IMG/VR virus record: IMGVR_UViG_3300035438_000328 | Coordinates: 1 to 49,960 of that record | DNA: 49,960 bases | Source: a virus | Reading direction: 5' to 3' (one strand) | Shown: positions 8,378 through 37,675 of the stretch, in pieces | How the letters are laid out: the number at the start of each line of letters is the position of its first letter | Position numbering within the stretch: the first letter of the stretch is position 1 | Notes under the pieces: model-generated | Databases searched by the model: none | Told to the model about the DNA's origin: nothing | The model's input: only the letters and a program-made list of their open reading frames with translations | Made by a program: the position numbers and the translations under genes

Positions 8378-8845
8378 TTATTTAAACGGCTTGTATTTTG
8401 TCTTACCCGCAGCATCGCGGTAGGCCACAAGTATCTGCTTTCTGTTGGCTCCTTTGCGGTAACCAACGTGCACCCAGTCAGGGTTCTTGCTAGTCCCGAA
8501 CTCAAATATGCATTGGTCGAATTCAAGGTTGTCTACGATAAAGTTAAAGACTTCCATATTGGTAACCCCGTTGCCGTGACCGTCTTGGTCTAGGTCAAGA
8601 GCGCGACCTAGGTTATGGTCAGAGGTAGAGCTCCCCCCAATAGCCTTGTTCAAGGCAGCAGAGCGATACCCCGAAGAGATATAGATAGGAACACCGAAGT
8701 GCTCACGTATCTTATCAAACACCTCGACACATATCGTCTTGAGGTTCTCTAGGTGCTCTGGTGTTGGCTCGTTACTAATGCCCTTGCGCTTGGCAGTATC
8801 ACTACGGGTGACCTCACTGATGGAGACATAATCGGACAGCTTCAT
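8378..8845 (-). CDS. M15-family zinc peptidase (endolysin, peptidoglycan peptidase)
   Basis: 155 residues with the M15 signature: SSGYRSAALNKAIGGSSTSDH (57-77), continuing HNLGRALDLD (77-86), where H77 and D84 are zinc ligands, and DWVHVGYR (123-130), where H126 is the third ligand. These enzymes cut peptidoglycan stem-peptide cross-links, as in T5 and other phage endolysins. There is no signal peptide or membrane segment, so access to the wall would need a holin; none is obvious nearby. It is the first gene of the leftward block facing the control region, with a minus-strand -7 element TATGTTTG at 8867-8874. Confidence 0.9.
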   Translation of the reverse strand: MKLSDYVSISEVTRSDTAKRKGISNEPTPEHLENLKTICVEVFDKIREHFGVPIYISSGYRSAALNKAIGGSSTSDHNLGRALDLDQDGHGNGVTNMEVFNFIVDNLEFDQCIFEFGTSKNPDWVHVGYRKGANRKQILVAYRDAAGKTKYKPFK

Positions 8846-8866
8846 TGTAGTCTACGTTTTGTTTTG

Positions 8867-8874
8867 CAAACATA
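8867..8874 (-). promoter_or_regulatory. -7 element of the leftward promoter for the endolysin block
   Basis: The minus strand reads TATGTTTG, 22 bases before the endolysin ATG. No well-placed TTG is visible 19-21 bases upstream, so an activator may be required. This would fit a late gene, but is inference. Confidence 0.45.
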
Positions 8875-8930
8875 GGGAAATATATTTTATGCTTTTGGAG
8901 GATAAAGTTATCAACAAATGCGTTTTTTAC

Positions 8931-8961
8931 TTGATTACTAACTTTTTTTCTTATAACTTTG
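8931..8961 (+). promoter_or_regulatory. Bacteroidetes-type promoter driving the structured RNA
   Basis: TTG at 8931-8933, a 20-base spacer and TAACTTTG at 8954-8961 match the TTG-N19/21-TAnnTTTG consensus exactly. Transcription should start near 8967 and run rightward into a GC-rich region that encodes no protein. Confidence 0.75.
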
Positions 8962-8966
8962 CCACT

Positions 8967-9157
8967 AAAGGACCTAGCGCTAGCACCCCAATTACAGGAT
9001 GATAAAGCTGCCGAGCGGGCCCCAAGCCCCGCCAAGGCAGCACCTGCACAACGGCTAGCAAGTGAAGCTTTGACCACAACACTCCTGCACTGGGTCAAAG
9101 CAAACGCGCCAACAGGACTATAGACTTATGTGGCGACGAATACTATTCTTTTTTTTT
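8967..9157 (+). ncRNA. candidate structured non-coding RNA in the control region
   Basis: A locally GC-rich stretch in an AT-rich intergenic region, directly downstream of a consensus promoter. Visible pairings: GCTAGC 8979-8984 with GCTAGC 9054-9059, enclosing a two-part hairpin (GCTGCC 9007-9012 with GGCAGC 9036-9041, and inside it GCGGG 9015-9019 with CCCGC 9028-9032); a perfect 9-bp stem GCTTTGACC 9067-9075 with GGTCAAAGC 9093-9101; and CGCCA 9107-9111 with TGGCG 9131-9135. A run of nine T (9149-9157) could end the transcript. It is not a tRNA (no T-loop) and no tmRNA tag frame is seen. Function unknown; a regulatory leader or trans-acting RNA are both possible. Confidence 0.55.
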
Positions 9158-9494
9158 ACAACATTAAAACACTAATGCATTTAAAATCAGTGTTATAAAT
9201 ACATAGTTGTCTACGTTTTAATTTAAAAAAACAAATATGCTGTCATTCCCCCCCCCTTTGAAATGAACAGCAAATAACACCCCAACAGACAAAATCACCA
9301 CCATTGTTAATAGAGGGGCCTGTAAAAGATGGTAGATATAATGGGGTGGGGGATAATATATACTATAAATCATTTGGAAAAATAATCCCAAACCAAAATC
9401 CAGAACCCAAGCCCTACACGTAAAGAGTAAATTACAAATATATTTTAGCGTTTTACACTACTACATTCCCAAGGAATCTAACTATTACCTACCC
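9158..9494. other. non-coding stretch, no clear feature
   Basis: AT-rich with a C9 run (9248-9256) and a G-rich patch near 9340-9352. The 11-mer GTCTACGTTTT occurs here (9209-9219) and in the leader of the endolysin gene (8850-8860). I see no credible open frame or strong hairpin. Confidence 0.5.
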
Positions 9495-9720
9495 TAAGCC
9501 AATAGGTTCTACCTATCAACCCCTATAAGCCAATAGGAAATAACTATCGGAATGAGTAAGGATTAGAGGTAACTACTTGATAGTCAGAGGGAAACAATCC
9601 CCTCCAATAATCCCCAATAGTCAAAACCTATCAAAGACTACCAACTCCACGCGAATATCGGCTTTGCCGATAGGCATATCCTATCGAAGATAGGAAAGAA
9701 AAAACGAGAAAAGTTTGCAC
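9495..9720. repeat. cluster of short repeats and mini-palindromes (possible origin or operator array)
   Basis: TAAGCCAATAGG occurs at 9495-9506 and 9526-9537, 31 bases apart (three helical turns). ACCTATCAA occurs at 9511-9519 and 9626-9634. Two small perfect hairpins follow: TATCGGC-TTT-GCCGATA and CCTATC-GAA-GATAGG (9656-9691). ATAGTCA recurs here and again in both arms of the large inverted repeat at 9805. There is no open frame. Direct repeats in phase with the helix suggest protein binding: a replication origin or a regulator's operators. Confidence 0.45.
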
Positions 9721-9804: not shown

Positions 9805-9878
9805 ATAGTCAATAGTAATTCTAAACGAAATATATTTGTTTCTCAAATATATTTCTTAAGAATTATTCTATTGACTAT
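9805..9878. repeat. long imperfect inverted repeat overlapping the early promoter
   Basis: The left arm 9805-9838 and right arm 9844-9878 are near-complementary with a 5-base loop. The outer part ATAGTCAATAG and inner part GAAATATATTTG pair without mismatches; two single-base bulges and one mismatch lie between. The right arm contains the TTG (-33) element of the next promoter, so a protein bound here would block or recruit RNA polymerase. As DNA it could form a cruciform. Confidence 0.7.
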
Positions 9879-9900
9879 TTCCCGACGCGAAGTATCTTTG
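9871..9900 (+). promoter_or_regulatory. promoter of the rightward (early) gene block
   Basis: TTG 9871-9873, 19-base spacer, TATCTTTG 9893-9900. This is a full Bacteroidetes-type promoter 30 bases upstream of the first rightward gene. The TTG lies in the right arm of the inverted repeat. Confidence 0.75.
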
Positions 9901-9930: not shown

Positions 9931-10215
9931 ATGGCTAAAGTAAAAAGAAATACTAATTCGAACTATACTCTAAAGAGTACTCCGACAAGCAGTTCAGTGT
10001 ATCAAGAGAACATATACTTATCTCATAAGTTTAGTAAGTTCAAAACAAAGTTTAAGACTAAATGCTTCGAGACTAATTCTATCCTTGATGCTGGTACTTT
10101 AGTAGCCTTTGATACTTTGAGTCGTAAAGTGTTTAGTCTTAATAGTCCCACTTATGCTTACTACATTGCTTCGGTTAGTAGATTATCAAAAGGACTAAAT
10201 TGGTCTAAAGTATAA
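9931..10215 (+). CDS. first early gene, small basic protein of unknown function
   Basis: 94 residues from ATG 9931 (MAKVKRNTNSNYTLKSTPTS). A longer frame starting at a TTG inside the inverted repeat is rejected because it would begin upstream of the promoter's -7 element. The N-terminus is basic and Ser/Thr/Asn-rich and probably disordered. The middle (YLSHKFSKFKTKFKTKCFET) is strongly basic and the end is hydrophobic. Being first behind the early promoter suggests host takeover or autoregulation, which is inference. Confidence 0.65.
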   Translation: MAKVKRNTNSNYTLKSTPTSSSVYQENIYLSHKFSKFKTKFKTKCFETNSILDAGTLVAFDTLSRKVFSLNSPTYAYYIASVSRLSKGLNWSKV

Positions 10216-27715: not shown

Positions 27716-28149
27716 CTAGCTATAAGTTTATAAATTAGTAGGGATAACAAAAGTGCTATGATAAATAAAAGCATAGCGTCCTTTAGCTTGTCAATACGCG
27801 TTTTAGGATTGGGCACGTATTCAATAACGGGGACTTTTACCTCTACATTCCTTATGATGTTATAGGGCTTTACTTTAGTCTTTACAATATATTTATCCTG
27901 ATACTTAATGATGGTAGTCTCAACAGTATCGTTGCTTACCACAACGCTGTCACTCCCAGAAAAAGAAACTGTATCCGCATACACAATCTCTTTTGTTACA
28001 ACAGTGTCCGTTTTTACTATCACTCTTTCTTGAAGCAGCGAAGGATTTAGCTGCGTGGCTCGATTCAAGTGCCAAGTCGCTCTTTTGTTTGCCGAGCATC
28101 CCACCATCAGTGTGCTCAGCATCAAAAAAATTGTAGTCCATTTATTCAT
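27703..28149 (-). CDS. u-spanin-like lysis protein
   Basis: 148 residues. The N-terminus is a lipoprotein signal ending at LMVGC (lipobox, Cys18). The C-terminus is a hydrophobic helix (LLFIIALLLSLLIYKLI) followed by a basic end. The middle is beta-rich (VIVKTDTVVTKEIVYADTVS). Lipid anchor outside, membrane helix inside and a beta ectodomain form the unimolecular spanin plan that joins inner and outer membranes at lysis. It overlaps the giant gene's end by 8 bases. Confidence 0.75.
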   Translation of the reverse strand: MNKWTTIFLMLSTLMVGCSANKRATWHLNRATQLNPSLLQERVIVKTDTVVTKEIVYADTVSFSGSDSVVVSNDTVETTIIKYQDKYIVKTKVKPYNIIRNVEVKVPVIEYVPNPKTRIDKLKDAMLLFIIALLLSLLIYKLIARWLK

Positions 28150-31100
28150 TTTGTTTTTGTGTATATAATTTTCTTACAACAGCGTAGAATTCTTCGTTAG
28201 GGCGGAATCCAACTTCCCTTAAGTCTTTCATAACATCGTTAAACTCCTCAGGTTCAAGCTTTCCGAACTTATCATAAAACACCCTAGCCGCTTCAGTCTG
28301 CGTGTCTGCAAATCTAATACTCATTAGGCTCTTATCAGACTCGGAAGCCAAAACAGTATAAAAATATTTACGCCCTAAACGCTCTCTCTTTTCCGGGCTA
28401 ACCTCAGATAAAACCTTGTTAAGCTCCTCTTTATAGGTTTTCCCGTTCTTATCGAAATGACCTTGCTCTTTATGTTTTTTAGCAAGGGATTTAAGTTTCT
28501 CGCTAACCATAAAGTCTTCAGTAGATTCCTCCATCTTTATCTCTTTATCTACCCCCTGCTTTCGGATGTAGTCTCTCCAATTAGGGTTGGTTGAACGAAC
28601 AAACACCTTCTGAGCGTTATCCTTAATGCCCTTCAGTTCCCTAGTTACCCTTGTGCCAGCCTTTTCCTCCATTTGCTTCTGTGAAAGGTCTACGTCCTCT
28701 ACGTTAAGAACATCGGTGGCGGCACGCGCTGCCAAGTCCAAAACACCATAGCCTACGCCAACAAGTAAGTTAGTGGTAGGGCTAGTGATAATAGACTCAA
28801 CGCCAGCCTTAAGGCGAGGTGCTGAAATGTCGGGGATAAGCTCAGACTCAGAAGCCTTAGCGATAGCCTTGTAGAAGAACTCTACTCGGTCACTTGCACG
28901 ACTCTCGGCGTATGGCTTTACCGTTCCGAAGATATACTCAGGCACAATCGTAGCATTCCTAAACGAATCGTAGTTAAATACTGACTTGGCAATAACCGCA
29001 GCGGCAGGTATCCTGTTCATTAAATCAAAAGACTTATCAATGCCGGGAACGAAAAACGGAAGTCCGTCCGCAGCGTTTTCCCAAGCAAGACGCACTTCAT
29101 CGTCGGTAAACTTCTTTGGCTTGCCATTAATCACAGAAGCCCAAGAATGAGCAAGCATCTCCAATGGCACCGTCAGTGGGAGTAATGACTGAACCTTCTT
29201 TAGTCGAATGTACTGACGATTGCCATCCTTATCCTTTGTGGGTAGTAATATTATGTGGTAGCGATAACGCATATATGGGTCTATATCCTCATAGTCATCA
29301 TCGTCTCCATAGGTGAGGATGTTGTAGAACACAAGGCCCATAATGCCAACGGCGTACTGGAAAAATTTAGAAGCAAACTTTTCTGGGTTGTCCTTAATTC
29401 CATTGAATGTAGACATTGTAGCTTGAAAGGCGACGTTTAGGTATGGAGCAACCGCGTCGAGGTCCTTAGTGAGCTTTCCGCCCTTGCTGAAGTCAACAAT
29501 GTTCCTAGCCTCAGCAGCAGCCATAAACTTAATCTTCTCTACGCCCTCCTTAGTCTTTGCTAAGTCTGGGAACTGCTGCTTTAGATTTTCAATCATCCGC
29601 TTATATACGGCCAAACGAATTCCAATCTCAAACGTCTCGCCAGTAAACGCAATGCCTTTAGCAACGCTGTCCCACCGCTTGGCAAGAGTATACTCAAGTT
29701 TGTTTTTATACTTTTCGCGGAATCGATATTCGGGACGGAACTCTTGGCTCATAAAGGACATACCGCCACCGTGAGCGAAATAGTCACGAGCGAGGTCTTG
29801 GTCTGTGGCCTTTGAGTAAATGCCAACAGCATAGTCCTTCGCCATCTTCAATAGGGCAACGGGAAGAAAGGAATCCTTGCCGTACACACGCCCACGCGCC
29901 AATACAACAGCTAATGATTCAGGAACCACTAGACCGAATCCGAATGTGATGTTATACCCCGTGGCAAATATCCGTAGGATTGGAGCCCCAGAAAGCGCAG
30001 AAAGAGCCCTCTTGAGTTTGCTGCCAGCACCGAAGTAGCTTCTATTCGAGTCGTTCCACTGCTCTAACATATCGCTTCGCAATTGAAAAGCACGAGTCTT
30101 TCCCCTCTCCTTATAGAATACATTTTCAAAGCCCTTGTCGGCAGGAGCTACGCGGGCATTTCCATATTGGTCTGTTGCCGCGCTTCCGTCTGGTAGCTCA
30201 ATGTAGTTAGCATCGCGAGCGAAGTCAGCAGTGTCGGGCGTTATTTCAGACGCTAGCTCTGCGTTGGCAATGTTTTGGAACCTCTTGGATTCCGCAGATT
30301 TGTATGCCAAAGACAACAGCATACGAGAGTCCATAAGAAGATTGCCTTCGCTTCCCTCTTTAATAGCCTTTAGCACGTCTTGCTTAAGTCCGGTGCCAGC
30401 CCTTTGGAACACCTCATCGTCGAGGTCTTCAAAGATTTTTTCAATAAACTTACGCGGCTCGTAGTCATCCTTGGCGAAACGCTCATAGGTAGCCTCGTCA
30501 ATAAGGCCGTTGACTTCGTAAGACTTAAGAACTGCGCGGAACTCAGTAAAGTAAGCATCGGCACGCATATTCAGCTTGCCAAACTGAGTGGCTCCAAGCT
30601 TACGCTCCATAGCGGTGATAGCCTGAATTGACTCCTCTCCGTTGAGTCCCTTCGGATGCTTGGGACGCTCAGCGTAGTCAGAAGCGATGTCCTTGAGCTT
30701 GTCTCGCTGCTCACGGATGTTCATCTTGTCGTTCTCAAGCTCGCTGATAAACTTCTTGTTGGGCTTAGGGCTGTTCTTTTCTCCCTTAATTAAATCATCA
30801 ATGGCACCAATATCAATGCGCATCTTTTCTTTAAACGACTCAAGGTTTCCTTCGGCTATCTCCTTGCGCTTATCCCAATTAGAATCAATCTGGATGACGC
30901 GACGCATAAAGATAATTTGGTCAAGAGCCTCCACTTCACCACGAGACAAGTCTTTATATATGCGCTTCTCAGCATCATTAAATAAATATGTTGCGTTGGC
31001 TTGGGCTCCCGCCCTTACGGTCATAAGATTTTCAACATAATCTAAGCTTCCATCTACAAGGGCTTCGCGAATGTCGGCTTGACGGTCTAACCAAGCATTC

Positions 31101-34100
31101 TTAGATAGGATGTTCTTCTGGACAGAGGTAAATAGCTTCATACGCTCTGCATACTCCTTATCCGAGTCGTAGGATGCCTTGCCCACCTTGTCGAGCGCTA
31201 CGTCTTCTGCGCTTTCTTCAAGAGGAGACAGCTTAATACGCTTAGAGAACTGGACGGCCGACTTAGTGAACTGCGTGGGGCTGTTTAGGTTTGTGAAGAT
31301 TTTAGGGATAAAGATTGTTTCGCCCCTCATTCCGTATGCATTAAACATACTTATGTACTCCTCAACATATTCATCCGCATCAATGCCAATAGCGTCGGCC
31401 TTCTCTTCAATCTCTGGAAGTGTGATGACCTCTCGAGCGCCAAAGTCTTGAAGCATAATTTTTTCAATCTCTTCAGGTTCAGTTTCAGCACCTTCCCTGT
31501 CCATAAACTCAAGATACTTCTCGTATGACTTGTTGGGGATTGCATAAAGAACACCAAGAGATGCGTAATGGTCGTCGATAAGAGTCTCATCGTGCACCTT
31601 AAGGGCAAATTCGCGACCAGCCTTCTTAACATACGCTAAGTTGTTTAGGGCAATACGGCGTGCGCCATCAGTTCTTTCATCAAACTTATGAGACTTCTCT
31701 TCGATGTTAAGTGCTGTTTTGTACTCCTTGGAATTCTTATCAGCCTTGCTCAACACTTCGTTTACTTTTTTAGAGAACGACTCATAAAGCGGATGCATTT
31801 TATCCTCTCCAGCAGCACTAAACTCAAGTGCCGCATACTCAATATCTGGGAACATTGTAGGGATAAGCTCTACTGTTCTGGCAAATACAGGAAATGCGTT
31901 TAGATATGGCGGGACGTTTTGATACTTAAATATCTTAGACTCGTACGCTACGGTAATTTTATTTGACGTAGGGTCGTAGTACAAATTAATGGTATATTCA
32001 TCATTGAGGCCGTCGCGCTTTAGGTTGGTCTTTTTACCAATGCCTTCGTCGCCATCAAACTCATCCGGGACTACATCAAGACCCATATAGTCTTCAGGAA
32101 ACTGCCAAACGTGGGGAAAGGAATAAGTTCGGTCATACAGGCCAGATTCTGTCATTGCTCTGCTACCCATATCGGCAATTGTCATCTCAAGGTCAGCAAT
32201 AGAAACAGCGCCTTTAGACTCAATGTCCTTTAAACGCTTCTCCAGATTGTTGTCGGTACCGCTTGCTATTTTGATATACTCATCAAGAAGCGCCCTTGGC
32301 TCCGAGAAGAATGTTTCCGGGGATACCTCATTACCAAGCTCTGCCTCAAAAATCTTGTATCCACCAAGTCCGTTAACTGTCTTCACCTTGAATATAGGCA
32401 TAGACGGGTCATAGCCAATCTCATCAAGGATTGACTCAAGAGACTCCTTGAAGTCTGGTATTAAGTATTCAGAAATCCCATTCTGCATATAGTTTGGGTC
32501 TTGGAAAGTCTTAACAGCAATCTTGCCTACAATCTTAACAATGTTTACACTAAACCGAGAAAGGTCAACTTCTTGCCTTGGGGAGAGGGGCATTCCTGTT
32601 GAAGCGTCAGTTATGCTACCCCCATCGAGCTTAATCTTATGGAATGATGATTCAACCGCTCCGGCCTCTCCAAGGTATTCTCCTATACTCTTACGCACAT
32701 ACAGCACGCCCTCTTTTGCATCAGCTTCAATCTTATCAAGAAGCTCTTGGCTAAGCTTGTTTAGAATTGGCTTTTCCGTTTTGATATATGTTGAAACATA
32801 TTCATTATCAGGGATTAACGCAGCAAGCTTTCCAAATATTGGATTGTTCTTTAGGGTGCGCTCAGTATCTTTTGACCTTAGGTTCCCTATGTTTGAGAAA
32901 CTAAGAGCTGAAGCTATCTGATTGATTGCGTTAGCCTTAAGCTTATTAAGTGCGTCGATGCTTACCTGAAAAGAGCCGGATTCCCCGTCATATCCACCGG
33001 GGTTGTATGGGGAGCCAAAAGCCTGATAGGTATACTCTTTGCTGCCAAAAGCCAGATAGAACTCCTCAGCATAAGTAATTGCCGAGCTATTCAACGATAT
33101 AGAGCCTGTCTTAAACACGGCAGACTGTTCGTCCATCACCTTAGCCATCTCAATAGCATCAGCAGAGTTCTCTTTGTTGTCAACCTTGGCCTTTAATGCA
33201 GCAATAATTCTGTCCTTGGCTTCTTCAATTGTTTGTGCCTTGTAGTCACTAAACGCAGGCACCTCACTAGCGCTCTTGAGCAAATTAGCAAAGTCATCAA
33301 GACGCGAGCCGACAGTAAACTCCTGAATGGTAAGAGGCGTAGGGCGTAGCTGCTCCTCGAGCTTTGGCTTAGCCGCTTCAACCACTTGCTTTACAGAATT
33401 AATGTCAGCTAAGTTCTCATTGAAGTTATCGCGGATGTAAGTCTGAAAAGCATCAGCAAGCGCCGTATACGCTAGGGCTTCACGAATCTCCTTATCGTTA
33501 AGGTCAACAGTCTCGTAAACCTTCTTGCCCTTAAGCTTACCAAACAGACCTTCAGCCTGAGCAATATCAATCATCTGCTGGTACTCGTCAATTGCCATAT
33601 TGACAATAGGGTCGGCCCCGCGTTTGGCGCCTACGATGCTTGACATAATGGCATTGAAGGCATTGGTGCTGTTTTCCTTCAGCATCTCAACGAACACTGC
33701 GCTATAGCCGTAGATAGATTGGTCTACGTTTCTTGCGGCAGCATTGATTACAATATACTTGTCAGACTTAAGGCCCTTCGGGATGTTGTATCCCTTCTTG
33801 CGGAACCCTTCAACAGCATCCGCTGGCATCATCTGGTCGGTAATCGTACCAGTGCGCAAATCAGGGAAGTTAAAGAATCCAACCTTAGAGGCATAGTTAA
33901 ACTTCTTATCGTTGACAACAACAAATGGAAGCTTCATCTTTACCGATAGCTTTTCAATTAGCGGCAATACAGTCGATAGGGCAGGATTTAGGTTTTGAAT
34001 TTCATTGGCGGGCACGATGTCATCCTCAATGTTGACACGAACCTCGGTGTCCTCCGACATAAAGCGTCGGATAATGGTCTGTTTCTCCTCACGGGTGGAG

Positions 34101-37100
34101 AACTGATACTTGTTTAGTGCGCTACGAACAAGCGCTCCTTTGTCTAGACGGACAGCCTTACCTGCTGCAAAGCTGTTGCGCATCTCCGTAAGGAAATCAA
34201 GAAGTTCTTTCTTGTTCTGGATTCGCTTGGTTATACCAAGATGACTTAAAATTCTGTTAATCAGATTCTTAACTCTATCTAGAAACGACGGGCTTTGGTC
34301 AAGCAAGTCAAACAACTCAGGGTCAGAGAATTGAGCAGTAAACTCAGTTACAATCTCCTTAGCGTCACCACTCTTGAGGACCACGCGCATACGACGCATA
34401 GCAGCAGTATTGGAAATAGCGTCAGGAGCGTTCTCAACGAGCTTGCGAATCTCATTAACAAGCCTGTTGGCAAACAAAGAATCTTTAGCCACTAACGCAT
34501 CAATGACGGGGTGGATGATTTCGTGGCGTATTACCCGGAACTCGTTCTTGCTAATCTCCCTATCGGTAGTGGGCTCAAGCAGTATGTGTATTTCATTGTT
34601 GGCCGCATCGTAGTACCCTTCGGTATCTCCAGTGCGCTGCTCTTCGGCAAGGGTGCTATCAATAGAATCCTGCGTGTAGTGAACTACTAACTTGACGTTT
34701 GGAGCAAGGTTAAATAGAACACTTAAGTAACGGTTAATGACATCTGATGTCTTCTTGGACACCCCTTTGAGCTTACCTCCAATAGATAAAACCTCAAGGT
34801 TCTTCTTTGCGTCTGACTCATCCTTAGTAAGCTCCTGCTTCTTTGTCTCTGCTTTGGCTGGGCGCTTTTTAGGCTCAACTTTACGCTTTGTTTCTACTCG
34901 ACGAGTAACAGCTTCATAAGCCTGCTCAAAGTCGTACTGAGGAATATCTCCTAGCTGTTCTATTTGGCCCTGAATAGCAAGGTCAAGAGCGAGGTTAGCG
35001 TCTTCAGCCGTCTCACGCACCTTAGACATCTTGGCTATCTCTTCCGTGCGATTAAGAATAACAAATGTCTGGGCGGACACGTCTTCGCCAAGCGGAGTGC
35101 GCTTACGAACCCTAGCCCCCATAATACGTCCGCTGTCGTCAAATATAGACTCAACGTACTCAATATCGGACAGTCGAGGGAATGCATCAACTACTCTGCG
35201 CTGCTCAATACGAACAATGTCGTCACCCCATTTCTCGCCTTTGTTCTGCTTAATCTCCTCTGGGGCGGCACGCCTATATGTTACAACATCTACGTTGCCA
35301 TCGGGCTGCACCTCAAGCATAGAGATGGCGCCGTAGCGCTCGTCTCCTACTCGGACAGGGGCAAACTGGAGCCTTTCTTGGAGGGGGAGCTTGTCAACCC
35401 TTTCTGCTTTAGGGCGTTCAACTCTTTTAGGAGCTCCAACTGGGACTCTTTCGGTAATGTTTTCAGCAGTAATTTCTGTTTTGTTGTCATAATAATCAAT
35501 TTCGTCAAAAAGTTCGGTAAGTAATTCAATGGATGCTTCACGCTCAATACCCTCTGGCATAGAGCTTATTCGGCCAATAGCTTCAAGAATCTGTTCCTGT
35601 GCCGCATCAGCATCTTTAATGTCCACGAAGTTGCCTTCCTGCACTTGCTGAAAGATGGGCAAATCAGCGATTTGAGACACCTCTGCCTCATAGTTAGTGG
35701 TTACTTCTTCAACCCCTTCTTCGATAGGTACTTGAAGAACTCCACCTGCTTGAGGCGTTTCTGCGCCTGCTCCTTCGATAGGCTGGGCTTCGACAACGGT
35801 TTCCCCTTCGACGATAGGACTTGGTAGCCCTGCTTCTTGCGTAGTATCATAGCCTTCAGATATGGTTTTGATTTGTTTGTACGTGTCCATCATTCTGGAC
35901 GCGAGAATGTCTTTAGCTGCTTCGTCTTCAGATGCAACACGCTGCTGCGCCATATCTTCAAGCTCTAAGCTTAAAGCGTAGGTCGTTGCGCGGTCCTCTG
36001 GAGTCATTGACTCGAAGTACTGAATACTTGACTTCATCTCACCATTGCGGCGCTTGGTGAGCTCTAAGATGTCGCTAGCAATTACTTGCCTGTCTTCGGC
36101 GGTAGGAGCCTGTAGTAGCTCCTCCTTGCGTTTCTTGATGGCGGAGTCAATCTTCTTCACTTCGAAGTTTCTACCCATCTTGTTAGCCAAGACGATAGGA
36201 ACTTCAACAGCAAGAGTTGGTGCTGTTAACACTCCGGCCATACCGACACCAGCAGCAGCAGAACGCCTAAATGCGTCAAACGCCCCGTCAAGGGTTGCGT
36301 CTGTGCCCTGAGCAACAGCATCGTTTACGTATTGAGTTACGCCAGTGATACCCTCACCGATAGCGTTTTCAGATACGTTGAGTGTTCCGTTGTATACAAG
36401 ACCCTTAAAGTATTGAGATAGAGCCTTTTGTGAGGCTTGTTTGGTTGCGTCAACAGCAAGTCCGCGCAGGGCTCTTGTAGCGGCTCTTGCTCCGGCAAGT
36501 TCGCCAACGCCCTCAGCTAGTCCAGATATACCAACATATCCAAGCTGTCCCATCGGCTCAAGCTTCTTAAACCATTCTTCATCCTTGACCTCTCCGTATA
36601 CTTGAGCTGCAGATAAAGAAGACAGAATTGCAAGTCCAGTCATTGGATTTTGAAGAGATGAGGCGCCAGCTGCAAGCATAATTGGGGCGCTTTGTGCAGT
36701 AGTATTCAAGGCAATACGCGCTGCGTTTGAATACTCGGAGTCTTTTATAGAATCAAAAAAGTCTTGCTCGAACTGCGTTGTGTTTCTACGCATTTCATCG
36801 TCAAACAAAGCATCAGATACTTTGTATGGTATGCCGAACGGGTCTACATCAACCCCCACAACAGACTGAAGGCCCTTAATTATCCCTCGAGCCCCCTTCG
36901 CCAATGATGCCGCTGCGTCAACAGCAAAGTTTTGGTCATTAAAGCGCTTATCTCCAGATAAGTCCATACCAACACCTTCGTTGAGCCAAAGGTCTGTCTC
37001 TAGCTTCTTTAAATATTCTTTGTCTTGCTTTTTGCCCTCGGGAACAGCCTGAAGAATAGTCCCCTTTACGGATTGCTGGAGTTCTTTCCAAATCTTGTCG

Positions 37101-37675
37101 TTCTCGGCTTTCTTGTTTAAGTTTAGCTCTCTATTTTTAGATTTCTCGAGTTCATACTGAAGATATGGTGCATTGCCTTGAGCCTGCTGAAGAGCCTGAA
37201 TTCTTTCTGTTTCAGCGATTTCTCTTGGCGTAGTAGCGGGAGTTATTCTTTTAGCCCTGTTATCTACGATGGTTTTGAATATGTTTTCAACCTGAGGCTG
37301 TTCCCCAACTTGACCCTCCGTAATGTCGCCCTTAGCTATCGCATCATCAACAATAGAACGGGCAGCATTGTTATAGATTGACTGTTTGTCTAGTCCAAGG
37401 CTACGAGCCTCACTTTGAGGCTTTAAAGGCTGCCGTGAAGGTGTAGCTTTTGCCGAAGGCCCGGAGGGTAATTGAGAAGCCGTAGATTCCTGCTTGGCCC
37501 GTGAAGGTTCTTGTGGAGATACCGCTTGTTCTTTTTTTTTTACTCCGTACTTCTTCTTAAAGTCGCCTACAACAAACTGAATAGCGTCATCCGATTCCTT
37601 ATTAAACGACATCTTTTGTACGATGCCATCAAGTCTAGCTCTGTCTTGCTCGGATAAAATCAGTTCGTCTTCCAT
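28142..37675 (-). CDS. giant internal virion / ejection protein with a zinc-peptidase-like motif
   Basis: 3177 residues. The N-terminus is charged, Pro/Gln/Ser-rich. Residues about 325-500 contain several hydrophobic Ala/Gly-rich helices (SAPIMLAAGASSLQ, GVGMAGVLTAP) that could form a membrane channel. HEIIH at 1051-1055 in NEFRVIRHEIIHPVIDAL fits the HExxH zinc-peptidase motif. The C-terminal third (about 2560-2960: FATGYNITFGFGLVVPESLAV, FMAAAEARNIVDFSKGG, YAVGIMGLVFYNILTYG) resembles the 'large polyvalent protein' C-terminal modules of other phages. Such proteins leave the capsid with the DNA. The ATG overlaps the preceding stop (TGATG). Confidence 0.75.
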   Translation of the reverse strand: MEDELILSEQDRARLDGIVQKMSFNKESDDAIQFVVGDFKKKYGVKKKEQAVSPQEPSRAKQESTASQLPSGPSAKATPSRQPLKPQSEARSLGLDKQSIYNNAARSIVDDAIAKGDITEGQVGEQPQVENIFKTIVDNRAKRITPATTPREIAETERIQALQQAQGNAPYLQYELEKSKNRELNLNKKAENDKIWKELQQSVKGTILQAVPEGKKQDKEYLKKLETDLWLNEGVGMDLSGDKRFNDQNFAVDAAASLAKGARGIIKGLQSVVGVDVDPFGIPYKVSDALFDDEMRRNTTQFEQDFFDSIKDSEYSNAARIALNTTAQSAPIMLAAGASSLQNPMTGLAILSSLSAAQVYGEVKDEEWFKKLEPMGQLGYVGISGLAEGVGELAGARAATRALRGLAVDATKQASQKALSQYFKGLVYNGTLNVSENAIGEGITGVTQYVNDAVAQGTDATLDGAFDAFRRSAAAGVGMAGVLTAPTLAVEVPIVLANKMGRNFEVKKIDSAIKKRKEELLQAPTAEDRQVIASDILELTKRRNGEMKSSIQYFESMTPEDRATTYALSLELEDMAQQRVASEDEAAKDILASRMMDTYKQIKTISEGYDTTQEAGLPSPIVEGETVVEAQPIEGAGAETPQAGGVLQVPIEEGVEEVTTNYEAEVSQIADLPIFQQVQEGNFVDIKDADAAQEQILEAIGRISSMPEGIEREASIELLTELFDEIDYYDNKTEITAENITERVPVGAPKRVERPKAERVDKLPLQERLQFAPVRVGDERYGAISMLEVQPDGNVDVVTYRRAAPEEIKQNKGEKWGDDIVRIEQRRVVDAFPRLSDIEYVESIFDDSGRIMGARVRKRTPLGEDVSAQTFVILNRTEEIAKMSKVRETAEDANLALDLAIQGQIEQLGDIPQYDFEQAYEAVTRRVETKRKVEPKKRPAKAETKKQELTKDESDAKKNLEVLSIGGKLKGVSKKTSDVINRYLSVLFNLAPNVKLVVHYTQDSIDSTLAEEQRTGDTEGYYDAANNEIHILLEPTTDREISKNEFRVIRHEIIHPVIDALVAKDSLFANRLVNEIRKLVENAPDAISNTAAMRRMRVVLKSGDAKEIVTEFTAQFSDPELFDLLDQSPSFLDRVKNLINRILSHLGITKRIQNKKELLDFLTEMRNSFAAGKAVRLDKGALVRSALNKYQFSTREEKQTIIRRFMSEDTEVRVNIEDDIVPANEIQNLNPALSTVLPLIEKLSVKMKLPFVVVNDKKFNYASKVGFFNFPDLRTGTITDQMMPADAVEGFRKKGYNIPKGLKSDKYIVINAAARNVDQSIYGYSAVFVEMLKENSTNAFNAIMSSIVGAKRGADPIVNMAIDEYQQMIDIAQAEGLFGKLKGKKVYETVDLNDKEIREALAYTALADAFQTYIRDNFNENLADINSVKQVVEAAKPKLEEQLRPTPLTIQEFTVGSRLDDFANLLKSASEVPAFSDYKAQTIEEAKDRIIAALKAKVDNKENSADAIEMAKVMDEQSAVFKTGSISLNSSAITYAEEFYLAFGSKEYTYQAFGSPYNPGGYDGESGSFQVSIDALNKLKANAINQIASALSFSNIGNLRSKDTERTLKNNPIFGKLAALIPDNEYVSTYIKTEKPILNKLSQELLDKIEADAKEGVLYVRKSIGEYLGEAGAVESSFHKIKLDGGSITDASTGMPLSPRQEVDLSRFSVNIVKIVGKIAVKTFQDPNYMQNGISEYLIPDFKESLESILDEIGYDPSMPIFKVKTVNGLGGYKIFEAELGNEVSPETFFSEPRALLDEYIKIASGTDNNLEKRLKDIESKGAVSIADLEMTIADMGSRAMTESGLYDRTYSFPHVWQFPEDYMGLDVVPDEFDGDEGIGKKTNLKRDGLNDEYTINLYYDPTSNKITVAYESKIFKYQNVPPYLNAFPVFARTVELIPTMFPDIEYAALEFSAAGEDKMHPLYESFSKKVNEVLSKADKNSKEYKTALNIEEKSHKFDERTDGARRIALNNLAYVKKAGREFALKVHDETLIDDHYASLGVLYAIPNKSYEKYLEFMDREGAETEPEEIEKIMLQDFGAREVITLPEIEEKADAIGIDADEYVEEYISMFNAYGMRGETIFIPKIFTNLNSPTQFTKSAVQFSKRIKLSPLEESAEDVALDKVGKASYDSDKEYAERMKLFTSVQKNILSKNAWLDRQADIREALVDGSLDYVENLMTVRAGAQANATYLFNDAEKRIYKDLSRGEVEALDQIIFMRRVIQIDSNWDKRKEIAEGNLESFKEKMRIDIGAIDDLIKGEKNSPKPNKKFISELENDKMNIREQRDKLKDIASDYAERPKHPKGLNGEESIQAITAMERKLGATQFGKLNMRADAYFTEFRAVLKSYEVNGLIDEATYERFAKDDYEPRKFIEKIFEDLDDEVFQRAGTGLKQDVLKAIKEGSEGNLLMDSRMLLSLAYKSAESKRFQNIANAELASEITPDTADFARDANYIELPDGSAATDQYGNARVAPADKGFENVFYKERGKTRAFQLRSDMLEQWNDSNRSYFGAGSKLKRALSALSGAPILRIFATGYNITFGFGLVVPESLAVVLARGRVYGKDSFLPVALLKMAKDYAVGIYSKATDQDLARDYFAHGGGMSFMSQEFRPEYRFREKYKNKLEYTLAKRWDSVAKGIAFTGETFEIGIRLAVYKRMIENLKQQFPDLAKTKEGVEKIKFMAAAEARNIVDFSKGGKLTKDLDAVAPYLNVAFQATMSTFNGIKDNPEKFASKFFQYAVGIMGLVFYNILTYGDDDDYEDIDPYMRYRYHIILLPTKDKDGNRQYIRLKKVQSLLPLTVPLEMLAHSWASVINGKPKKFTDDEVRLAWENAADGLPFFVPGIDKSFDLMNRIPAAAVIAKSVFNYDSFRNATIVPEYIFGTVKPYAESRASDRVEFFYKAIAKASESELIPDISAPRLKAGVESIITSPTTNLLVGVGYGVLDLAARAATDVLNVEDVDLSQKQMEEKAGTRVTRELKGIKDNAQKVFVRSTNPNWRDYIRKQGVDKEIKMEESTEDFMVSEKLKSLAKKHKEQGHFDKNGKTYKEELNKVLSEVSPEKRERLGRKYFYTVLASESDKSLMSIRFADTQTEAARVFYDKFGKLEPEEFNDVMKDLREVGFRPNEEFYAVVRKLYTQKQNE

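Follow-up and report, generated by a model that had tools for sequence, protein, structure and literature searches.

The put antitermination RNA of phage HK022 is about 70 nt long, folds into two hairpins and acts in cis on the early operons. Bacterial 6S RNA forms one long rod with a central bubble that mimics an open promoter. A 6S RNA of Bacteroides has been mentioned (PMC7366714), and small RNAs near phage control regions are a known kind, exemplified by the OOP RNA of phage lambda and others (PMC12197685). OOP RNA is 77 nt long and antisense to cII, and its promoter matters for the control of replication (PMC12197685).

The locus described here very probably encodes a real, previously undescribed phage RNA. 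It lies in an IMG/VR virus record of an uncultured phage of Bacteroidota type; "the window" is the whole stretch of DNA that was analysed (49,960 nt), and positions refer to it. As with OOP, this is a small phage RNA with its own promoter in a control or replication region. The DNA element beside it is origin-like and a putative origin. It differs from OOP in being about 190 nt long and multi-hairpin, in having no conserved gene on the opposite strand, and in belonging to phages of Bacteroidota. Like put, it is a structured RNA with which an early transcript would begin, but here a separate promoter serves the early genes and the RNA is followed by a long gap. It shares with 6S RNA a length of about 190 nt, and host polymerase is a conceivable target; however, its predicted fold combines an enclosing stem with hairpins that stand apart, and none of the Rfam models for 6S RNA matches it. 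The phage RNAs described below are a new set within a known kind, with an unusual turnover of classes at a fixed slot.

Searches for known relatives of the RNA were negative. None of the 4227 models of Rfam 15 matched the window or 12 relatives at the gathering threshold, and a permissive Rfam search of positions 8800-9300 returned only chance matches (E 2.9 and above). Among 50,697 phage records, DNA searches with the RNA and with the neighbouring element found nothing relevant, and a pattern search for RNAs of the window's class returned only lineages already known. The literature searched yielded no description of such an RNA, and likewise none of a structured RNA of Bacteroidota phages.

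The control region and its promoter

The large terminase of the window shares 47% identity with that of an uncultured Manatee Spring podovirus, and 34-39% with those of Elemovirus of Flavobacterium and Cellulophaga phages such as phi38:1. The host is probably an aquatic member of the Bacteroidota, and the phage collection searched contains no isolate of this group. The late genes, which reach as far as an M15 endolysin, are read leftward and the early genes rightward from 9931, so that the RNA locus occupies the divergent gap between the late (endolysin/terminase) side and the early genes. Elsewhere in the window, a 3177-aa open reading frame (28142-37675, minus strand) has no PHROG match and no PDB sequence match. 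The features of the locus are as follows.

8378-8845, minus strand: M15 peptidase endolysin, the divergent neighbour (Pfam PF08291, 1.2e-18; PHROG endolysin, 6e-37)
8931-8961, plus strand: promoter P1, Bacteroidota type, with TTG at 8931-8933, a 20-nt spacer and TAACTTTG at 8954-8961 (motif and relatives)
8967-9157, plus strand: structured noncoding RNA (folding z-score -2.5; no conserved reading frame; conserved island in L056, 79% identity)
8979-9059, plus strand: enclosing stem, GCTAGC 8979-8984 with GCTAGC 9054-9059 (five of six positions changed on both sides within class A, manual alignment)
9007-9041, plus strand: compound hairpin P2, outer stem, GCTGCC 9007-9012 with GGCAGC 9036-9041 (sequence, pair probabilities)
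9015-9032, plus strand: compound hairpin P2, inner stem, GCGGG 9015-9019 with CCCGC 9028-9032 (sequence, pair probabilities)
9067-9101, plus strand: hairpin P3, nine perfect pairs, GCTTTGACC 9067-9075 with GGTCAAAGC 9093-9101 (in L034/L053 both partners differ at two pairs, with pairing in 100% of cells)
9107-9135, plus strand: hairpin P4, CGCC 9107-9110 with GGCG 9132-9135 (pair probability about 1.0; not clearly supported in L034/L053)
9149-9157, plus strand: T9 run, presumed 3' end (sequence)
9348-9415, plus strand: conserved, origin-like DNA element (divergent copy), GTGGGGATAATATATA ... AACCGAAACG ... C-rich (nhmmer E 0.0014 in the window)
9871-9900, plus strand: early-gene promoter P2, TTG-N19-TATCTTTG (conservation of 82-94% in L056 and L053)
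9931-10215, plus strand: first early gene, 94 aa, no assigned function (78-80% identical in L034, L053 and L056; 38% in L058)

The Bacteroidota sigma-ABfr consensus has TAnnTTTG at -7 and TTG near -33 (PMC7366714), and P1 (TTG-N20-TAACTTTG) fits this type. The first-pass annotation had described P1 as a full consensus promoter; the promoter itself stands, as one of Bacteroidota type, but not as a sigma-70 consensus, for a sigma-70 promoter scan of the window did not list it. Matches of sigma-ABfr type are expected by chance in the window (8 observed, 7.6 expected), so a lone motif carries no weight and the claim rests on the relatives. There P1 owes its credibility to its constant position and to a spacer of 19-20 nt in 41 of 41 sequences, several of them near-identical and the whole therefore not 41 independent cases, in a search that permitted spacers of 17-22 nt. 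In L034 and L053, P1 reads TTG-N20-TAACTTTA, which the strict pattern skipped and which was read directly from the search output. The position and geometry of the promoter are thereby established at the level of sequence comparison.

A search with the endolysin gave 80 loci, and two other endolysins, DNA patterns and an early gene added more. About 40 related phage contigs share a layout, and by sequence comparison this synteny is established: a left gene (mostly the endolysin), P1, a structured RNA, a conserved DNA element, promoter P2 and the early genes. Where the endolysin is at least about 73% identical, the region is usually arranged as endolysin, P1 on the opposite strand, about 200 nt of folded noncoding sequence, several hundred nt of further noncoding sequence, promoter P2 and small early genes. 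More distant endolysin loci are without the RNA, and L289 has an RNA (of class C, see below) beside a different left gene. The RNA is therefore tied to the control region and not to the endolysin, and the idea that it is part of the endolysin gene was ruled out on the same two grounds. In L009, L012, L013, L019 and L052, open reading frames of about 170-270 aa lie between endolysin and P1; some may be homing endonucleases. Between L056 and the window, the 79% identity is limited to promoter plus RNA, and conservation falls just after the RNA. The RNAs of L034/L053 are too diverged for BLAST, with the layout kept.

Folding, composition and covariation of the RNA

The RNA is about 190 nt long, with its start predicted at about 8965-8968 from the -7 box and its end placed at the T9 run, where a terminator scan found no canonical terminator. 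The perfect 9-bp stem, the two-step GC hairpin enclosed by GCTAGC/GCTAGC, the third stem and the T9 run that the first-pass annotation had noticed are all present as listed above, and its contrast in base composition is borne out, with a GC content of 0.55 in the RNA; the flanks have 0.29 and 0.33, and the window as a whole 0.44. The minimum free energy is -57.5 kcal/mol, compared to -47.5 +/- 3.9 for dinucleotide shuffles, of which 3 in 200 fold as well. Pair probabilities of the named helices are mostly 0.9-1.0, except near the tip of the inner P2 stem, where they go down to 0.54. Pairing of the 5' end with the U-run, closing the whole RNA, has negligible probability in the register tested; the single-sequence minimum-energy structure does draw a stem between these segments, in a different register.

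The stretch had also been described as lacking an open frame, and comparison establishes its noncoding nature: no reading frame is conserved among the relatives, and on the opposite strand none is kept among those of class A. A short conserved peptide was ruled out, since no reading frame is shared. The RNA is neither a tRNA nor a tmRNA, as had been noted, with 0 genes reported by ARAGORN.

Two repeats lie close to the RNA. An inverted repeat, GCTGTT...AACAGC, is found just past it (9239-9271 in the window; in most relatives, about 180-330 nt downstream of P1) and occurs in most classes, possibly as an operator or terminator. A 28-nt direct repeat containing GTCTACGTTTT has copies on either side of the RNA gene, at 8843-8870 and 9202-9229, the former being the endolysin leader.

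The RNA sequences of the relatives fall into at least five classes (A, B, C, D and E), with no alignment between classes. Class A consists of the window, L044/L056 and L034/L053, and with only these three lineages its covariation amounts to few independent events, partly from manual alignment. Within P3, U-A is replaced by C-G and by G-C in L034/L053, and 45 of 45 cells are paired. Manual alignment further shows a compensatory change from C-G to A-U in hairpin P2 of L044/L056, and an enclosing stem that is nearly all rewritten with pairing retained. Compensation is clearest in the hairpin of classes B and C (n=11), which has 93.9% of its cells paired, compared to 79.6 +/- 2.3 when shuffled, with five pairs changed on both sides; its covariation score of 0.356 (0.099 shuffled) is reached by none of 500 shuffles, and the signal is lost when the partner strand is slid. 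The compound hairpin of class E covaries as well. Of 21 sequences folded, 20 have a negative z-score, not always a strong one, and the values are weak in part of class E. The helices are thus established as conserved pairings, so far as alignments can do so, and folding against shuffled controls together with compensatory changes in classes A, B/C and E supports the original proposal of a promoter-driven structured RNA.

A covariance model of B/C recovers B/C members, including the held-out L030 (1.3e-5). It does not find the window RNA; for two class E members it hits the correct site on the correct strand, with E values of only 4-8. The classes have a similar plan, with a compound hairpin in mid-RNA that carries an asymmetric internal loop; they are treated as positional counterparts, a common family not being established. 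A single family-wide 3' hairpin with an ACUAU loop was considered and is not claimed, because the motif occurs in B, C and E members with a stem in no common register. In L090, a class D phage, a second promoter-driven, GC-rich and seemingly noncoding stretch lies in the early region (8484-8720, plus strand).

Because the shape is kept by compensatory change despite the turnover of sequence, the RNA most likely functions through its fold. The explanation that we prefer, with a probability of roughly 0.5, is that it is a stand-alone phage noncoding RNA gene with its own transcript of about 190 nt, likely acting in trans early in infection.

The origin-like element and alternative roles

The element downstream of the RNA has the consensus GTGGGGATTATATATAC, a stretch of near-constant length, AACCGAAACG and a C-rich tract. 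It is AT-rich with fixed internal spacing and has repeats close by, and from its sequence it looks like a replication origin or packaging site. Two pattern searches found it in 19 and 20 viral stretches, in partly overlapping sets. The element is common to many uncultured phages of Bacteroidota type, with or without the RNA (for example, L269 12144-12223 and L266 9241-9319). Patterns for the element and the B-class hairpin had no match in 84,980 bacterial and archaeal genomes, and so no prophage or host copy was found. Iteron-like direct repeats in the window (CCAATAGG...CCTATCAA, 9477-9634, 31-nt spacing) suggest an origin or a repressor array.

The constant proximity of the RNA to this element makes an origin-linked role, like that of OOP, the main rival. 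The element would be an origin, and transcription from P1 toward it, or the RNA itself, would activate, prime or control replication in cis. P1 precedes the element by 268-512 nt in nearly all close relatives, and the composition, C-rich tract, spacing and repeats of the element, in the gap where late and early genes diverge, are consistent with this role. However, in five more distant lineages (L255, L256, L262/L265, L280 and L286) a P1-like promoter with a structured noncoding stretch precedes the element on the opposite strand, facing away from it; homology of these stretches to the window RNA is not established, and they could in part be 5' UTRs. In several element-bearing contigs the strict pattern finds P1 on neither strand, the element is only a putative origin, and mere transcriptional activation would need no preserved folding. 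We consider the origin-linked role possible but doubtful.

The first-pass annotation had also suggested a leader that regulates the early genes. Such a leader, or a put-like antitermination RNA, would allow transcription begun at P1 to cross the noncoding region and enter the early operon. In the close relatives the RNA is indeed on the same strand as the early genes and upstream of them, a structured RNA at the 5' end of a long noncoding gap. Against this, a separate conserved promoter, lying about 940 nt downstream of P1 with about 700 nt of noncoding DNA in between, serves the early genes; T9 directly follows the RNA; conservation forms an island that ends just past it; and the orientation varies in the wider group, the opposite-strand lineages suggesting that orientation toward the early genes is not essential. 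A leader is therefore the less likely reading, and we regard it as improbable. Promoter P2 overlaps a large palindromic region (9805-9878; TAGTCAATAG ... CTATTGACTA, with an inner AAATATATTT inverted repeat) that is 84-88% conserved in L056 and L053 and is a possible operator of the early genes.

That the hairpins act as DNA (as cruciforms or single-strand initiation sites, for example), with no functional RNA, is very improbable: compensatory changes would preserve DNA hairpins too and the location is origin-like, but a promoter of fixed geometry is conserved exactly at the start of the folded stretch, and the wobble changes in class A are G-U on the plus strand, as for an RNA made from P1 (a weak point, from few cells).

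A proposed stand-alone RNA gene and its possible significance

For the preferred stand-alone RNA gene, we infer transcription, its timing, the 3' end and action in trans from the features above. Upon phage entry, host RNA polymerase with the primary sigma factor would start at P1 and make a discrete transcript of about 190 nt from the divergent control region. This transcript would fold into the enclosing stem around compound hairpin P2, with hairpins P3 and P4 after it, and would stop before the conserved element and promoter P2, and for this reason it is read as its own transcription unit and not as an early-operon leader. Early in infection, the folded RNA would bind a protein or RNA target in trans. 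Fast sequence turnover with retained folding fits such a target, possibly under arms-race selection, and titration of a host factor by the RNA, as initially proposed, is possible.

More tentatively, these loci may constitute a new RNA system, in which a folded RNA gene occupies the same control-region slot of uncultured Bacteroidota phages and its sequence is exchanged as a whole from one lineage to another (five classes or more), with promoter geometry, compound-hairpin plan and the link to an origin-like element kept. If so, the pattern would fit an arms-race RNA, for instance one that inhibits a host machine or defence or serves as its decoy, or else an RNA that is a cofactor in initiating replication. 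The phage-encoded structured RNAs that are understood are few, and a slot with the same promoter and element but a changing RNA sequence would offer a handle on the start of replication, or on host takeover or evasion. Such a slot would also provide a way to locate the control region in many uncultured phages.
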